A stretch of 64,000 nt of DNA from Boseongicola aestuarii (GTDB lineage: Bacteria; Pseudomonadota; Alphaproteobacteria; Rhodobacterales; Rhodobacteraceae): the NCBI RefSeq assembly GCF_900184815.1, contig NZ_FXXQ01000009.1, positions 124,001 to 188,000 on the forward strand. The letters are read 5' to 3'. Below are positions 53,014 to 60,336 of the stretch, one piece after another; positions within the stretch are counted from its first letter, which is position 1; every line of letters starts with the position of its first letter. Under the pieces are notes generated by a model, which worked only from the letters and a program-made list of their open reading frames with translations, was not told where the DNA came from and did not search any database. The position numbers and the translations under genes were made by a program.

Positions 53014-53532
53014 GTGGATAGAGCCCAGAAAGAGAAAGTGGTCGAGGAACTCGGCCAAATCTTTGAAAGCTCTGGCGTTGTAGTGGTTGCCCACTACGCG
53101 GGTATCACGGTTGCCGAGATGCAGGACCTTCGTTCGCGTATGCGTGCAGAAGAAGGTTCCATTCGCGTCGCCAAGAACAGGCTCGCCAAAATCGCCCTTC
53201 AGGGAACCCCAAGCGAAGCGCTTGGCGATCTTCTGACGGGAATGACCGTAATGGCCTATTCCGAAGACCCAACGGCTGCTGCCCGGGTTATGGAAGCGTA
53301 TGCCAAGGACAACAAGAAATTGGAAATCCTTGGTGGTACGATGGCTGGCACGGCTCTTGACGCCGCCGGTGTCAAAGCTGTTGCAGATATGCCGTCGCGT
53401 GAGGAGCTTATCGCTTCGATCGTTGGTTGCATTGGCGCACCTGCTTCGAACATCGCTGGCGCGATTGGCGCACCTGCTTCGAACATCGCGAGCATTCTCT
53501 CAACCATCGAGGAGCGCGCCGAAGCGGCGTAA
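53014..53532 (+). CDS. rplJ: 50S ribosomal protein L10
   Basis: A 172-aa protein that forms the base of the ribosomal stalk and binds L7/L12 dimers through its C-terminal helix. It has GTG start and the conserved opening [20 protein letters not shown], then [13 protein letters not shown] and [11 protein letters not shown]. Near the end an 11-residue unit [11 protein letters not shown] occurs twice, before the L7/L12-binding helix. Translationally coupled to rplL, 66 bp downstream. Confidence 0.98.
53431..53489 (+). repeat. 33-bp period tandem repeat inside rplJ
   Basis: A 26-bp block beginning ATTGGCGCACCTGC recurs exactly, starting at 53431 and 53464. It encodes two copies of IGAPASNIA. The reading frame is kept. 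The DNA identity suggests recent duplication or gene conversion. Confidence 0.85.
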
Positions 53533-53598: not shown

Positions 53599-53979
53599 AT
53601 GGCTGATCTGAAAAAACTTGCTGAAGAGATCGTGGGTCTTACCCTTCTCGAAGCACAAGAACTGAAGACGATCCTGAAGGACGAATACGGCATCGAGCCC
53701 GCTGCTGGCGGCGCTGTCATGATGGCTGGTCCTGCGGGTGGTGACGCTGCTGCTGCTGGCGAAGAGCAGACAGAATTCGACGTCATCCTCAAAGCTGCTG
53801 GTGCCTCCAAGATCAACGTGATCAAGGAAGTCCGCGCAATCACGGGTCTTGGCCTGAAAGAAGCCAAGGACCTGGTCGAAGCTGGCGGCAAAGCTGTCAA
53901 AGAAGGCGTCGACAAAGCGGAAGCAGACGAGATCAAAGCCAAGCTGGAAGCAGCTGGCGCCGAGGTCGAAGTCAAGTAA
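53599..53979 (+). CDS. rplL: 50S ribosomal protein L7/L12
   Basis: A 126-aa stalk protein present in several copies per ribosome that recruits translation GTPases. An N-terminal dimer domain ([20 protein letters not shown]), an Ala-rich hinge (residues 40-56) and the C-terminal domain ([20 protein letters not shown], then [15 protein letters not shown]) are all present. Good ribosome-binding site; a strong terminator follows 21 bp after the stop. Confidence 0.98.
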
Positions 53980-54000
53980 TCGACGTTACAGTCGTGAGAG

Positions 54001-54032
54001 AGGGCCGGGCAGCGATGCCTGGCCCTTTTTTG
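54001..54032 (+). terminator. Rho-independent terminator after rplL
   Basis: An 11-bp stem AGGGCCGGGCA / TGCCTGGCCCT with one G:T mismatch, GCGA loop and a run of six T. It should separate rplJL from the downstream rpoB, which then needs its own promoter. Confidence 0.9.
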
Positions 54033-54354
54033 TTGCGGTGGGTTTGACCAAATTTCAGAGGTTTTGGATGGCGGATTTGCGGACTTTCGAGGCGTCGAAT
54101 AAGAAAACTCAATCTTTCGTTCTCAGATCAAACTGACCGTTCATAGCACTCTCAACCGCGGCTGCGCGATTTCTCATATGCGATAGCTATAAACCAGCTC
54201 TGTTGATGCATTTTGCATGCCGCAGCGAACCTCTCTGTCAAGGATGACAGCGTCCAGGACTGGAAACCGATAATCCCACACTTCGACGCTTAGAGACCAT
54301 ACTTCGTTTAGAACGAAATTCTGGCTGCCGGATTTTCACAATCGACCCCGTTTC
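54033..54354. other. Intergenic region at the left edge of the rplL-rpoB insertion
   Basis: About 320 bp of lower-GC DNA with no credible reading frame, repeat or insertion-sequence end that I can recognise. An AGAA-N5-TTCT inverted repeat lies at 54310. It may be the left flank of the inserted segment. Confidence 0.5.
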
Positions 54355-54424
54355 TGAACAACGTTCAAATAATTCGTGAACATTGTTCACGTCTGCGCTA
54401 GGTGTTGTTTATGAACAGCGTTCA
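54355..54424. promoter_or_regulatory. Three palindromic operators TGAAC-N3-GTTCA
   Basis: Perfect 5-3-5 palindromes: 54355-54367 (TGAACAACGTTCA), 54377-54389 (TGAACATTGTTCA, with G/C flanks making 15 bp symmetrical) and 54412-54424 (TGAACAGCGTTCA). Centres are 22 and 35 bp apart. They end 29 bp before the lipoprotein ATG, so they cover its promoter. The shape suits a dimeric repressor of the TetR class or similar; no such gene is nearby. Confidence 0.7.
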
Positions 54425-54452
54425 AATGAACTGTCTGAATAGGAAAAAAATT

Positions 54453-55022
54453 ATGAAACGCAAAATTGGTAGTCTTTTCATTGCATCAATCCTGTTGGCC
54501 GGATGTGGAGGCGGAACAACCGCTTACGAAGCATTCGATAACCAGGGACAATCAATTTCCGACCGTGCAAACTTGCTTTATCTTGAAGAGGGCTACACGG
54601 ATCCGAGCACCCTGCCGGCAAGCACAACCGCAACTTTCGAGGGCGTGATTGCAATCGCAACACTCGACGAAAGTCTCGAGGTGTTGGGAGATTTAGAATT
54701 AATTGCAGACTTCAACGGTCCCGGTGGCGTGGCAGGTTCAGCCACCAATTTCGTCGACGAGACGAGTAATCCGTACACAGGAACTTTGACGATTTCAAAT
54801 GGCGCAATAGACCGCACGGCGGACATCAATACAGAGTTTACCTATAGCGCGAGAATTGATGGCCCTCTTACTGGCGCGTCAGACACCTACGTCTTTGATG
54901 GTTTTTTGGACGGGGACTTCATCGGCAACGAATATGACTACGCGTTCGGGTTTGCCGAAGGAACCGTGACGTCCGATCTCGAAACCTCAGAGTTCACAGG
55001 AATATTCGCAGCCGAGCGCTAA
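54453..55022 (+). CDS. Transferrin-binding-protein-like surface lipoprotein
   Basis: A 189-aa lipoprotein (signal KIGSLFIASILLAGCGGG; acylated Cys near residue 17). The C-terminal 110 residues are beta-rich with the patterns YTGTLTISNGAIDRTADINT, YVFDGFLDGDFIGNEYDYAF and SEFTGIFAAER. These resemble the eight-strand barrel of TbpB/HpuA-like lipoproteins that often carry metal or haem cargo. The start at 54453 (MKRKIG) is better than the upstream TTG. GC is low for this genome. It lies in an insertion between rplL and rpoB under three palindromic operators. Confidence 0.7.
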   Translation: MKRKIGSLFIASILLAGCGGGTTAYEAFDNQGQSISDRANLLYLEEGYTDPSTLPASTTATFEGVIAIATLDESLEVLGDLELIADFNGPGGVAGSATNFVDETSNPYTGTLTISNGAIDRTADINTEFTYSARIDGPLTGASDTYVFDGFLDGDFIGNEYDYAFGFAEGTVTSDLETSEFTGIFAAER

Positions 55023-55112
55023 GCACTCCGCTGTCTTTTTTGCGGGCATCGGATCTCGAGCCCGTCGTGCAAGCCAAATTCGAGATTCATTTATCAAAAA
55101 AGGAAAATAGTT

Positions 55113-55550
55113 ATGATCAAACAAATTCTTACAGCAGCCGTCGTTTCGTGTTCCGCAATTATCCCGGGGACTGTCTTCGCAGAAGTCATAACATGCGAGC
55201 ATCTGGGTTATCGTGTTACGGGTCGATTTGTGAGCAAGGGGAACGACGCTGAATTGGTGAAGCAGATATTTGGGACAGTATTCCAAGTTGATTCCAAGAC
55301 ACCTGGCGAACTGCTCATGCAATTTGATGACACTTGGTATTTGGTTGAAGATGTTCGTGTTTCTCGGACGAAGAATTTCACGCTCTACAAGTGGCGGGCT
55401 ACTGGAAAGTACACAGACACTAACGAGAGCTACAAACATGACTATTCGTTCAGGATTTATAACGACGGCCGGGGTTCAGCCGGACGGCAGACTTATCCTT
55501 CCGGAAAATACGCCTACATTGAAGCAAAGGGTAAATGCGATAACGTCTAA
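55113..55550 (+). CDS. Exported hypothetical protein, 145 aa
   Basis: A signal peptide (MIKQILTAAVVSCSAIIPGT, cut before EVITC) precedes a beta-rich mature domain of about 120 aa: TCEHLGYRVTGRFVSKGND, LLMQFDDTWYLVEDVRVSRT, then SFRIYNDGRGSAGRQTYPSG. Two cysteines, near the start and end, could form a disulfide. I recognise no family. It is 90 bp after the lipoprotein gene, has an AAGGAAA site, and ends before a hairpin terminator, so the two genes probably form a unit. Confidence 0.65.
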   Translation: MIKQILTAAVVSCSAIIPGTVFAEVITCEHLGYRVTGRFVSKGNDAELVKQIFGTVFQVDSKTPGELLMQFDDTWYLVEDVRVSRTKNFTLYKWRATGKYTDTNESYKHDYSFRIYNDGRGSAGRQTYPSGKYAYIEAKGKCDNV

Positions 55551-55613
55551 GAGCATCTGAGAACTTCCAAGTTCTTTGCAAGAGTGCCATTTCGCGCCCT
55601 CGTCCACATCATT

Positions 55614-55650
55614 TGTCCTGGCTCAACTTAAAAAGGGGCCGGGACATTTT
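55614..55650 (+). terminator. Likely terminator of the inserted gene pair
   Basis: A 9-bp stem TGTCCTGGC / GCCGGGACA with one G:T pair, a 15-nt loop and four T. It is 63 bp after the stop of the 145-aa gene. Confidence 0.5.
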
Positions 55651-56175
55651 CTGCATGCGGACCCGTGACGGATTTGGGCTCAAAGCCGTCATTCTCTGCT
55701 GTGCCGTGTCCCGCTCTCCGATCTTCCGAATCGCATTAATCGGGGGGCGGTTTTACCCGGACTTGCCAAAGCGCAATTAGGCGGGCAGACTGAAATCCGC
55801 GCATCGGTTGCGATGGAACCGGTGACGCCCGATAGCAGACGCAGGACTGATGTGCTCGGTTTTGCGGCAATAAAATAACGCGTTAAATCGCTGTTAACCG
55901 CCTTTGTGTGGTTGAAAGCCGCGGCTGTGGTTGCTATCTCGTGCGCTCAGGCGGAAATTTGATTCGGTGATCGCGCAGTCACAAACCACATAAGTCATTG
56001 ATATTGCTCTATCATAGCGTTCCAGGAATGGTGCGCTTTGATAGGGCAGTTGACGTTTCGGGCGAGGGATCTTTGGGAGGTCTCTCTGGTATGGAAACGA
56101 AAACTGTCCCGATCTGGCACTGCTGCGGACGCCCAAACCGTGTCAGCGCCGATTAAAAACGGAGATCCATATCCT
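55651..56175. other. Long upstream region of rpoB
   Basis: About 525 bp without a convincing gene. It holds a CtrA-type box at 55883 and AT-rich stretches near 56000-56030 (CATTGATATTGCTCTATCATA) that may include the rpoB promoter. Frames in it are short and have no protein-like pattern. Confidence 0.4.
55883..55898. promoter_or_regulatory. CtrA-type binding site (TTAA-N7-TTAAC)
   Basis: TTAAATCGCTGTTAAC is an exact match to the full CtrA box of alphaproteobacteria. It is about 280 bp upstream of rpoB. Chance matches occur in AT-rich gaps, so binding is unproven. Confidence 0.45.
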
Positions 56176-59100
56176 ATGGCAACGACCTATCTCGGCCAGA
56201 AACGTCTTCGCAAGTACTACGGCAAAATTCGTGAAGTTCTTGAGATGCCGAACCTCATCGAGGTTCAAAAATCCTCCTATGACCTTTTCCTTGGCAGCGG
56301 CGACCAGCCCGAGCCGATGGACGGCGAAGGTATCATGGGTGTTTTCCAGTCGGTTTTCCCGATCAAGGATTTCAACGAGACAGCTGTTCTTGAGTTCGTG
56401 AAGTACGAGCTTGAGAAGCCGAAGTACGATGTTGAGGAATGTCAGCAACGCGACATGACCTATAGCGCGCCACTGAAAGTGACGCTGCGCCTTATCGTGT
56501 TCGATGTGGACGAAGACACTGGCGCGAAGTCGGTCAAGGACATCAAGGAACAAGACGTGTTCATGGGCGATATGCCTTTGATGACGCCGAACGGCACATT
56601 TGTCGTGAACGGTACCGAGCGCGTGATCGTTTCCCAGATGCACCGTTCGCCTGGCGTGTTCTTTGACCACGACAAGGGCAAGACGCATGCGAGCGGAAAG
56701 CTGTTGTTCGCCTGCCGGATCATTCCTTACCGTGGGTCTTGGCTCGATTTCGAATTCGACGCCAAAGATCTTGTGTTTGCGCGCATCGACCGTCGCCGCA
56801 AGCTGCCTGTCACGACCCTGCTTTATGCGCTGGGTCTTGATCAGGAAGGTATCATGAATGCTTATTACGATACGGTTAACTTCAAGCTGAAAAAGAACAA
56901 GGGTTGGGTGACCAAGTTCTTCCCGGATCGTGTGCGTGGCACGCGTCCTGCGTTTGATCTGGTGGACGCCAAGACCGGTGAAGTGATTGCGGAAGCTGGC
57001 AAGAAAGTTACGCCGCGCGCCGTGAAGCAGTTGATCGACGACGGCAAGGTCAAGGAACTGCTGGTTCCGTTCGACAATCTGGTTGGCCGGTTCGTATCCT
57101 GTGACATCATCAACGAAGAAACCGGCGCGATCTATGTTGAAGCTGGCGATGAGCTGACTTGGGAGCTGGACAAAGAAGGCGAAGTCAGCGGCGGTACGCT
57201 GAAAGAACTGATGGATGCCGGTGTGACCGAGATTCCGACGCTGGATATCGATAACATCAACGTCGGTCCTTACATCCGCAACACGCTGGCTGCCGACAAG
57301 AACCTTGGACGCGACACTGCGTTGATGGACATCTACCGCGTGATGCGTCCAGGCGAGCCGCCAACCGTTGATGCGGCGTCGGCTTTGTTTGACACGTTGT
57401 TCTTCGACAGCGAGCGGTACGACCTTTCGGCTGTTGGCCGCGTGAAGATGAACATGCGTCTGGCGCTTGATGCCGAAGACACGCAGCGCACGCTTCGCAA
57501 AGAAGACATCGTTGCCTGTATCAAGGCGCTGGTCGATCTGCGTGACGGTCGTGGCGACATCGACGATATTGACCACCTTGGAAACCGCCGGGTTCGCTCG
57601 GTCGGTGAATTGATGGAAAACCAGTATCGCGTTGGTCTGTTGCGCATGGAGCGCGCGATCAAGGAGCGTATGTCGTCGGTCGAGATCGACACGGTGATGC
57701 CGCAGGATCTGATCAACGCCAAGCCTGCCGCTGCTGCGGTGCGCGAGTTCTTTGGATCGTCGCAATTGTCTCAATTCATGGACCAGACGAACCCACTTTC
57801 GGAAGTCACGCACAAGCGTCGTCTTTCCGCGCTTGGGCCCGGCGGTCTGACCCGCGAACGTGCCGGCTTTGAAGTGCGCGACGTGCACCCGACACACTAT
57901 GGTCGGATGTGCCCGATTGAGACACCGGAAGGCCCGAACATCGGTCTGATCAACTCGCTGGCGACATTCGCCCGCGTCAACAAGTATGGCTTTATCGAAA
58001 CGCCGTACCGCAAGGTGGAAAACACCAAGGTAACCGACGAGGTTATCTATCTGTCGGCAACCGAAGAGATGCGGCACACGGTGGCTCAGGCCAACGCGAA
58101 CCTCGATGAGAACGGCAAGTTCGTAAACGACCTCGTGAATACGCGGCGGTCGGGCGAATACACGATGTCGCAGCGCGAAAGTGTTGATCTTATTGACGTT
58201 TCGCCAAAGCAGCTTGTGTCGGTTGCGGCCTCGCTTATTCCGTTCCTCGAAAATGACGACGCGAACCGGGCGCTTATGGGCTCGAACATGCAACGTCAGG
58301 CGGTTCCCCTTCTGCAGGCCGAAGCGCCTCTGGTTGGAACCGGCATCGAGGAAGTCGTGGCCAAGGATTCGGGCGCGGCCATCATGGCGAAGCGTGCGGG
58401 CATCATCGACCAGGTCGACGCGCAGCGTATCGTTGTGCGCGCGACGGAAGATCTTGAGCCGGGCGATCCGGGTGTGGACATCTACAGCCTGCGTAAGTTC
58501 CAGCGGTCGAACCAGAACACCTGCATCAACCAGCGTCCGCTGGTGAAGGTGGGTGACACGGTTGGCAAGAACGAAGTGATTGCGGACGGTCCGTCCACCG
58601 ATATCGGTGAATTGGCCCTTGGTAAGAACGTCGTCGTCGCCTTCATGCCGTGGAATGGTTACAACTATGAGGACTCGATCCTGATTTCCGAGCGTATCGT
58701 TCGCGATGACGTCTTCACCTCGATCCACATCGAGGAATTTGAAGTCGCAGCACGTGACACGAAGCTTGGGCCGGAAGAGATCACTCGCGATATTCCGAAC
58801 GTCGGTGAAGAAGCTCTGCGCAACCTCGACGAGGCTGGCATCGTTTACATCGGCGCGGAAGTTGGACCGGCTGACATTCTGGTTGGCAAGATCACTCCGA
58901 AAGGCGAAAGCCCGATGACGCCGGAAGAAAAGCTTCTGCGCGCCATCTTTGGTGAGAAAGCATCCGACGTGCGGGACACGTCGCTGCGTCTGCCGCCGGG
59001 TGACTTTGGCACGGTTGTTGAAGTTCGTGTCTTCAACCGTCACGGCGTCGAAAAAGACGAGCGTGCATTGCAGATCGAGCGTGAAGAAGTCGAGCGTCTG

Positions 59101-60336
59101 GCCCGTGACCGGGACGACGAATTGGGCATCCTTGAGCGCAACATCTATTCGCGTCTGAAGGACAGCCTTCTTGGCAAAGTTGCCGTGAAGGGTCCGAAAG
59201 GCGTGAAGCCAAAGTCGAAGATCGACGAAGATCTGCTTGAGCAGTTGTCTCGTGGTCAGTGGTGGCAGTTGGCCATCGCGGACGAGAAAGAAGCGCAGGC
59301 GATCGAGGCTCTGAACGCTCAGTACGAAGCGCAAAAGCGTGCTTTGGATCACCGTTTCGAGGACAAGGTCGAGAAGGTCCGTCGTGGTGACGATCTTCCG
59401 CCAGGTGTGATGAAGATGGTCAAGGTCTTTGTAGCCGTGAAGCGCAAGCTTCAGCCCGGCGACAAGATGGCTGGTCGTCACGGCAACAAGGGTGTGATTT
59501 CGAAGGTGGTTCCGATGGAGGACATGCCGTTCCTTGCGGATGGCACGCCGGTTGATTTCGTACTGAACCCGCTGGGTGTGCCGTCGCGTATGAACGTCGG
59601 TCAGATCTTGGAAACACACATGGGTTGGGCGTCGCGCGGTCTGGGTATCCAGATTGACGAGGCTCTGGGGGAGTATCGCCGTTCCGGTGACATGACTCCG
59701 GTCCGTGACGCGATGAAGATCGCCTATGGTGACGACGTTTACGACGAAGGCATCAAGGATCTGGACGAGGATCGTTTGCTGGAGATTGCGGGCAACGCCA
59801 CGCGCGGTGTTCCAATCGCCACACCGGTCTTTGACGGTGCGAAAGAAGCTGACGTGAACAACGCTCTGATGCGGGCGGGCTTCAACGAAAGCGGTCAGTC
59901 GGACTTGTTTGACGGTCGCACGGGCGAGAAGTTTGCACGTCAGGTGACTGTCGGCATCAAGTATCTGCTGAAACTGCACCACCTTGTGGACGACAAAATC
60001 CACGCACGTTCCACAGGCCCTTACAGCCTTGTCACGCAGCAGCCTCTGGGTGGTAAAGCCCAGTTCGGTGGCCAGCGTTTCGGGGAAATGGAAGTCTGGG
60101 CTTTGGAAGCCTACGGCGCGGCATACACGCTTCAGGAGATGCTCACCGTCAAGTCGGACGACGTTGCAGGCCGTACCAAGGTCTACGAGTCGATCGTCAA
60201 GGGCGAGGACAACTTTGAAGCGGGCGTGCCCGAAAGCTTCAACGTGCTTGTGAAAGAAGTCCGGGGCCTCGGCCTCAACATGGAACTCCTGGATGCGATT
60301 GAGGACGACGAAGAAGGAGGGATCGCGGCCGAGTAA
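56176..60336 (+). CDS. rpoB: DNA-directed RNA polymerase subunit beta
   Basis: A 1386-aa beta subunit. The rifampicin-pocket region [15 protein letters not shown], then [13 protein letters not shown] and [18 protein letters not shown], is wild type at the classical D516, H526 and S531 equivalents, so sensitivity is expected. [17 protein letters not shown] lies near residue 1100 and is a core active-site segment. The ATG at 56176 ([17 protein letters not shown]) is the conserved start; the frame is open to 56038 without conservation. It is followed by rpoC after 49 bp. Confidence 0.98.

Follow-up and report, generated by a model that had tools for sequence, protein, structure and literature searches.

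A species-specific pair of exported-protein genes behind a pspA-type promoter between rplL and rpoB in Boseongicola aestuarii

Introduction

In Boseongicola aestuarii, a marine-type alphaproteobacterium, the gap between rplL and rpoB measures 2196 nt and contains a lipoprotein gene (P0001) and a gene for an exported protein (P0002). This raises the question of how such a pair came to lie between two essential operons, one for ribosomal proteins and one for RNA polymerase, what controls it, and which cellular function it may serve. We addressed it in a stretch of 64,000 nt (contig NZ_FXXQ01000009.1, positions 124,001 to 188,000), referred to here as the window, through comparison with the rest of the genome, congeners, and other genera of the family. 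Our findings favor the view that P0001 and P0002 are a recently acquired, species-specific envelope pair that occupies a tolerant slot, is preceded by a pspA-type promoter, and belongs to a TetR-PspA membrane-stress regulon; we consider this account probable, though well short of certain.

Organization of the interval

An earlier sequence-only reading of this DNA had pointed to the roughly 2.1 kb between rplL and rpoB, and the family comparison shows this distance to be exceptional: 113 other genera with both genes on a single stretch have a median gap of 251 nt. That reading had also placed a strong terminator past rplL and a hairpin past the pair, both of which were located. The features of the region are as follows.

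53599..53979, + strand: rplL, the upstream neighbor (open reading frame and tblastn matches in relatives)
53996..54031, + strand: intrinsic terminator of rplJL, a strong hairpin followed by T6 (-33.3 kcal/mol for 53980-54040, z -5.2), common to the sister species L036
54034..55757, no strand: species-specific segment by blastn and alignment against L036 and L037 (left edge ~54034, right edge 55757-55827)
54355..54367, + strand: TetR-type operator 1, TGAACAACGTTCA
54377..54389, + strand: TetR-type operator 2, TGAACATTGTTCA, overlapping the -35-like GTGAAC (54376-54381)
54399..54404, + strand: -10-like TAGGTG, 17 nt past the -35-like hexamer
54412..54424, + strand: TetR-type operator 3, TGAACAGCGTTCA, directly 3' of the -10
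54453..55022, + strand: P0001, a 189-aa lipoprotein with a predicted helix and 8-stranded TbpB/fHbp-type barrel
55113..55550, + strand: P0002, a 145-aa orphan with a signal peptide, starting 90 nt past P0001
55614..55646, + strand: terminator-like hairpin followed by TTTTC, 3' of the pair
55912..55940, + strand: promoter-like TTGAAA-17-TATCTC of rpoB (consensus match and conservation; the downstream sequence is nearly identical in three congeners)
56055..56148, + strand: Rhodo-rpoB leader RNA, RF03074 (45.9 bits, above the gathering score), also present in the sister species
56176..60336, + strand: rpoB, the downstream neighbor

The gap thus holds the two products that had been proposed, a lipoprotein with the lipobox LLAGC and a 145-aa exported protein whose signal peptide was recognized by inspection. 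The two genes presumably share one transcript. Scanning with a simple sigma-70 model gave no promoter. The lower GC content claimed for the interval was also recovered, with a value of 0.496 for the gap, 0.51 for P0001 and 0.47 for P0002, compared with a mean of 0.593 for window genes of at least 200 aa. The third codon positions follow the same trend (GC3 of 0.53 and 0.50 for the pair versus 0.68 for the window genes), and the codon use of the pair lies below that of the neighboring genes. The low GC of the interval is due in part to its non-coding stretches and not to the genes alone.

Distribution of the gap and turnover of its contents

Expanded gaps recur across the family. Of the 113 genera surveyed, 20 have a gap longer than 400 nt and 8 a gap longer than 1 kb, so occupation of this locus is not the oddity it had been taken for. 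In six further genera, a search of the ~5 kb upstream of rpoB revealed no rplL. The cargo of the gaps above 1 kb consists of unrelated genes, and a strong rplL terminator nearly always precedes it; the kinds found across expanded gaps include a sulphur transporter, a PPIC-type protein, a citrate-transporter-like protein, a PAS protein, CdiI-like proteins, and a DUF1801 protein. As a separate observation, the occupied interval of locus L157 holds two similar open reading frames, one of them a CdiI-like gene (contact-dependent inhibition immunity), with no recognized cdiA in the gap.

The P0001-P0002 pair was present in none of the other rplL-rpoB intervals read in the family. The congener genomes are incomplete, and two sister species have readable DNA upstream of rpoB, in both cases with cargo unlike that of the window. 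In L036, the gap measures 1804 nt and holds a sulphur transporter (PF04143). In L037 (G249, L037:932-5607), a divergent gene set precedes rpoB, and by eye its members resemble genes for a GntR regulator, a dihydrodipicolinate-synthase-like (aldolase-like) protein, an aldehyde dehydrogenase, and an MttB-like methyltransferase; no rplL lies within 5 kb, where the contig ends. The rplL terminator is common to the window and L036, and the last ~420 nt ahead of rpoB are common to all three congeners, with different sequences in between. This arrangement of shared edges and differing middle indicates, by comparison of the sequences, that the segment at 54034-55757 is species-specific and that the contents of the site turn over between congeners. 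A comparison of this interval across many roseobacter genomes had been proposed as a check, since an old arrangement would place the same pair there throughout the Rhodobacteraceae; the result instead supports a lineage-specific insertion. One congener calls for care in its use: two rpoB starts (G248 contigs C365 and C67; 100% and 93% identity) occur in one incomplete genome, which is probably a mixed assembly.

The presence of a strong terminator distinguishes expanded from normal gaps. A folding-based scan looked immediately past rplL for strong terminators, defined as hairpins at or below -18 kcal/mol with T following, and found one in 19 of 21 expanded gaps and in 2 of 93 normal ones. On an rpoB tree, the gap switches between normal and expanded at least 16 times, and among independent pairs on that tree the terminator never runs the opposite way (sign test, median p 0.06, with few well-supported pairs). 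We read this as a slot that tolerates insertions through the separation of two operons, an association that leaves the order of events aside. We propose that inserted DNA would disturb neither side because, in this genus, rplJL ends at a strong terminator and rpoBC appears to have its own promoter and leader.

On the rpoB side, the promoter-like TTGAAA-17-TATCTC is common to the three congeners, with one base different in L037; this conserved block is missing from the near relative L038, whose gap is 233 nt. Judged by consensus match and conservation, transcription of rpoBC in this genus appears to begin at a separate promoter and to include a leader of its own. The window copy of the Rhodo-rpoB leader shows nothing unusual; it lies, undamaged by the insert, on the rpoB side. 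Between this motif and the promoter-like site, a strong hairpin at 56005-56048 is nearly identical in the three congeners and may be part of rpoB leader control. On the other side of the gap, a tandem repeat near the C terminus of RplJ (53430-53500) is found family-wide and is thus ordinary.

The two exported proteins

P0001 is clearly coding by its codon use, with a signal ~4.8 sd above composition shuffles. The cysteine of its lipobox (LLAG-C18) is invariant in an alignment with its three closest relatives. Distant relatives (~30-40% identity) were found in 20 of 247 other genera of the family, and one paralogue is encoded in the same genome. Structure prediction, which had been suggested for both proteins, succeeded for this one. 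The AF2 model, built from only four sequences, has eight main strands preceded by an N-terminal helix, at a pLDDT of 78. In Foldseek, its top rows are fHbp and TbpB, with a best E-value of 1.5e-3 and none at or below 0.001; fold matches also include HpuA and HphA. The best structural match is to fHbp/TbpB barrels (VIA, Z 12.4, 121 aligned residues, 2.6 A), and other small barrels, such as OmpX and Ail, score near Z 11.6. P0001 itself matches neither Pfam TbpB_B_D (PF01298) nor FHBP_C (PF08794); among its relatives, 8 of 17 match FHBP_C and 6 of 17 match TbpB_B_D, with a best E-value of ~1e-6. The TbpB-like character assigned from the sequence is supported at the level of predicted fold, and we regard P0001 as a predicted TbpB/fHbp-type 8-stranded barrel with moderate confidence. 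Like the lipoproteins of those families, it has a lipobox, an N-terminal helix, and a C-terminal 8-stranded barrel; unlike them, it is a single small barrel of 189 aa with no Pfam match of its own and no receptor partner gene adjoining.

For P0002, the evidence of coding is modest: its frame scores best of the six and lies ~3.2 sd above shuffles. No credible relative was found in 248 genera of the family, four congeners, 385 genomes of the class, GTDB contigs, IMG/VR, plasmids, or phages. A single class-level match (E 0.004 over 64 residues) was taken as chance. Searches with both proteins against Pfam, NCBIfam, PHROGs, PADLOC, and PDB sequences returned nothing credible. The suggested structure prediction gave no usable result here, as the model (pLDDT 43) was too poor for a fold search.

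A pspA-type promoter and the TetR-PspA regulon

A pspA-type promoter precedes P0001, a feature that is visible in the DNA and that the sequence-only reading did not mention. The palindrome TGAACNNNGTTCA occurs three times, at 54355, 54377, and 54412, compared with 0.07 occurrences expected in the window. The spacings of 22 and 35 fall within the ranges by which we recognized the regulon (~21-23 and 31-35). In the pspA promoters of relatives, operator 2 contains a -35-like TTGAAC, the -10 lies ~17 nt on, and operator 3 lies past the -10. The P0001 promoter has a -35-like GTGAAC and a -10-like TAGGTG, 17 nt apart; with operator 2 over the -35 and operator 3 past the -10, its geometry suits repression. 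The -10-like hexamer is identical to that of the genome's own pspA promoter, and the whole spacers are not the closest among those compared; the P0001 promoter may, or may not, have arisen as a copy of that promoter. None of these operators accompany relatives of P0001 elsewhere, and the presence of the promoter here is therefore no sure sign of a long-standing functional tie.

The genome as a whole contains 13 TGAACNNNGTTCA sites in six clusters, versus two sites for a reversed control, and both its TetR gene and its pspA carry the operator. One site precedes the TetR gene (C56:13736), and three precede the PspA/IM30 homologue (C40:42864-42934). Another cluster lies ahead of a 103-aa lipoprotein-like open reading frame followed by an acyl-ACP-phospholipid O-acyltransferase gene (PRK06814; aas). 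The cluster at L109:5661-6898 (contig C18 of this genome) precedes a gene for an Ala/Ser-rich exported 114-aa protein and then one for a DUF2145 protein, which may be an envelope-stress protein, with a KefC/B-like K+ efflux gene divergent. The fifth cluster is found ahead of a gene for a 399-aa multi-membrane-span protein (L113:4864-6122), and the sixth is the one ahead of P0001.

Relatives of the TetR were identified in 35 of 149 genera, and the palindrome lies just upstream of tetR in 27 of the 30 loci read; in many of those loci, a pspA with the triple operator adjoins tetR. The triple pattern was found in 56 of 394 genera and in none with the control. In readable loci, pspA follows all 47 of 47 triples (~41 genomes). 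A second triple occurs in two genomes only, the one studied here, where it precedes P0001, and G022, where (at L240:1755-1824) it stands ahead of a gene related to the operator-bearing one for the 399-aa membrane protein in B. aestuarii. This multi-membrane-span protein thus carries a TetR-type operator in two genera, as a full triple in G022, and would seem to be a second conserved component of the pspA regulon.

The link between the TetR and the TGAACNNNGTTCA operators is drawn from position and conservation, and a different regulator with matching specificity could be the one that acts through these sites. Among named NCBIfam models, the TetR scores best against FabR (E 3.7e-6). This likeness hints that the regulator senses lipid, and a phospholipid acyltransferase gene carries the operator; the score is far below the FabR cut-off (26.8 versus 151 bits), and the protein is not FabR itself.

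Discussion

Under our preferred explanation, the insert would leave both neighbors undisturbed, since the rplJL operon ends at its strong terminator and rpoBC would be transcribed separately, with a promoter and leader of its own. The TetR encoded elsewhere (G000 contig C56, 13761-14354) would bind the three palindromes at the P0001 promoter and repress it. Membrane damage or a change in lipid state would lift this repression, and pspA, the gene for the Aas-type phospholipid acyltransferase, and the remaining genes with operators would be released at the same time. As a small lipid-anchored barrel, P0001 would then bind a ligand or a partner at the envelope, and P0002 would work with it in the periplasm. 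TetR binding, co-transcription, the stress function, and the partnership of the two proteins are inferred steps of this scheme. We think that the two proteins act for the envelope when the membrane is stressed, because the company their operators keep consists of pspA, a phospholipid acyltransferase, and membrane proteins. The two-component surface system originally suggested for P0001 and P0002 is possible.

In its core target, a PspA/IM30 homologue, and in the membrane-related nature of its other targets, the putative regulon resembles the phage-shock (Psp) response. In E. coli, pspA is run by PspF and sigma-54; here, in contrast, control is putatively of the TetR type with triple operators. 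The regulon also differs from known Psp systems in its set of genes with operators, among which are one for a phospholipid acyltransferase and, solely in this genome, P0001-P0002.

The predicted fold of P0001 invites a different explanation, surface nutrient capture, in which P0001 would be a TbpB/HpuA-like receptor lipoprotein for an environmental ligand, P0002 an accessory, and the locus chosen for its high expression. The matches to fHbp, TbpB, HpuA, and HphA, together with the relatives that reach FHBP_C and TbpB_B_D, speak for it. Yet the fold is shared with OmpX and Ail at similar Z, no receptor gene lies beside P0001 between rplL and rpoB, and the promoter is of the pspA type; we therefore consider this account quite unlikely. 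A specific attachment site at the rplL-rpoB junction, targeted by a mobile element, had also been entertained, and unrelated genes do occupy the junction repeatedly. Their occupation follows the rplL terminator instead, and neither a recombinase, attachment or direct repeats, nor a tRNA target was detected in or beside the segment, nor a phage or plasmid relative. An origin of the segment as an integrative mobile element is thus unsupported, and we give it almost no credence.

The pair could also be a neutral passenger. In that case, the segment would have entered a tolerant gap along with a regulated promoter, and its two genes, of no great functional importance, would be undergoing loss or replacement from one species to the next. 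Rapid cargo turnover at the site among congeners, the orphan status of P0002, and codon use below that of the neighbors are all compatible with this. Three intact operators argue against it, as does an intact two-gene unit with lipobox and signal peptide in which P0001 is clearly coding, and we give it a small though real chance. Membership in the TetR-PspA membrane-stress regulon thus remains the reading we prefer.

Barrel lipoproteins and PspA responses are of known kinds. In the literature searched, which covers part of the field, we found no description of a TetR-pspA system with the triple operator, and nothing on insertions between rplL and rpoB. It is tentatively suggested, at somewhat under even chances, that part of the family has a TetR-controlled pspA system with a triple-operator promoter that apparently senses membrane state, and that P0001 and P0002 are a new exported effector pair captured via the same promoter type in the tolerant rplL-rpoB gap.

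For the biology of the family, these findings offer a rule for the occupation of the rplL-rpoB interval, namely a terminator that separates the two operons. They also describe a putative pspA system under TetR control, whose highly specific arrangement of operators was found in roughly one-seventh of the genera searched (56/394). The pair in B. aestuarii would be an example of how orphan genes may join a conserved stress response: they land in a tolerant gap with a suitable promoter already in front of them.
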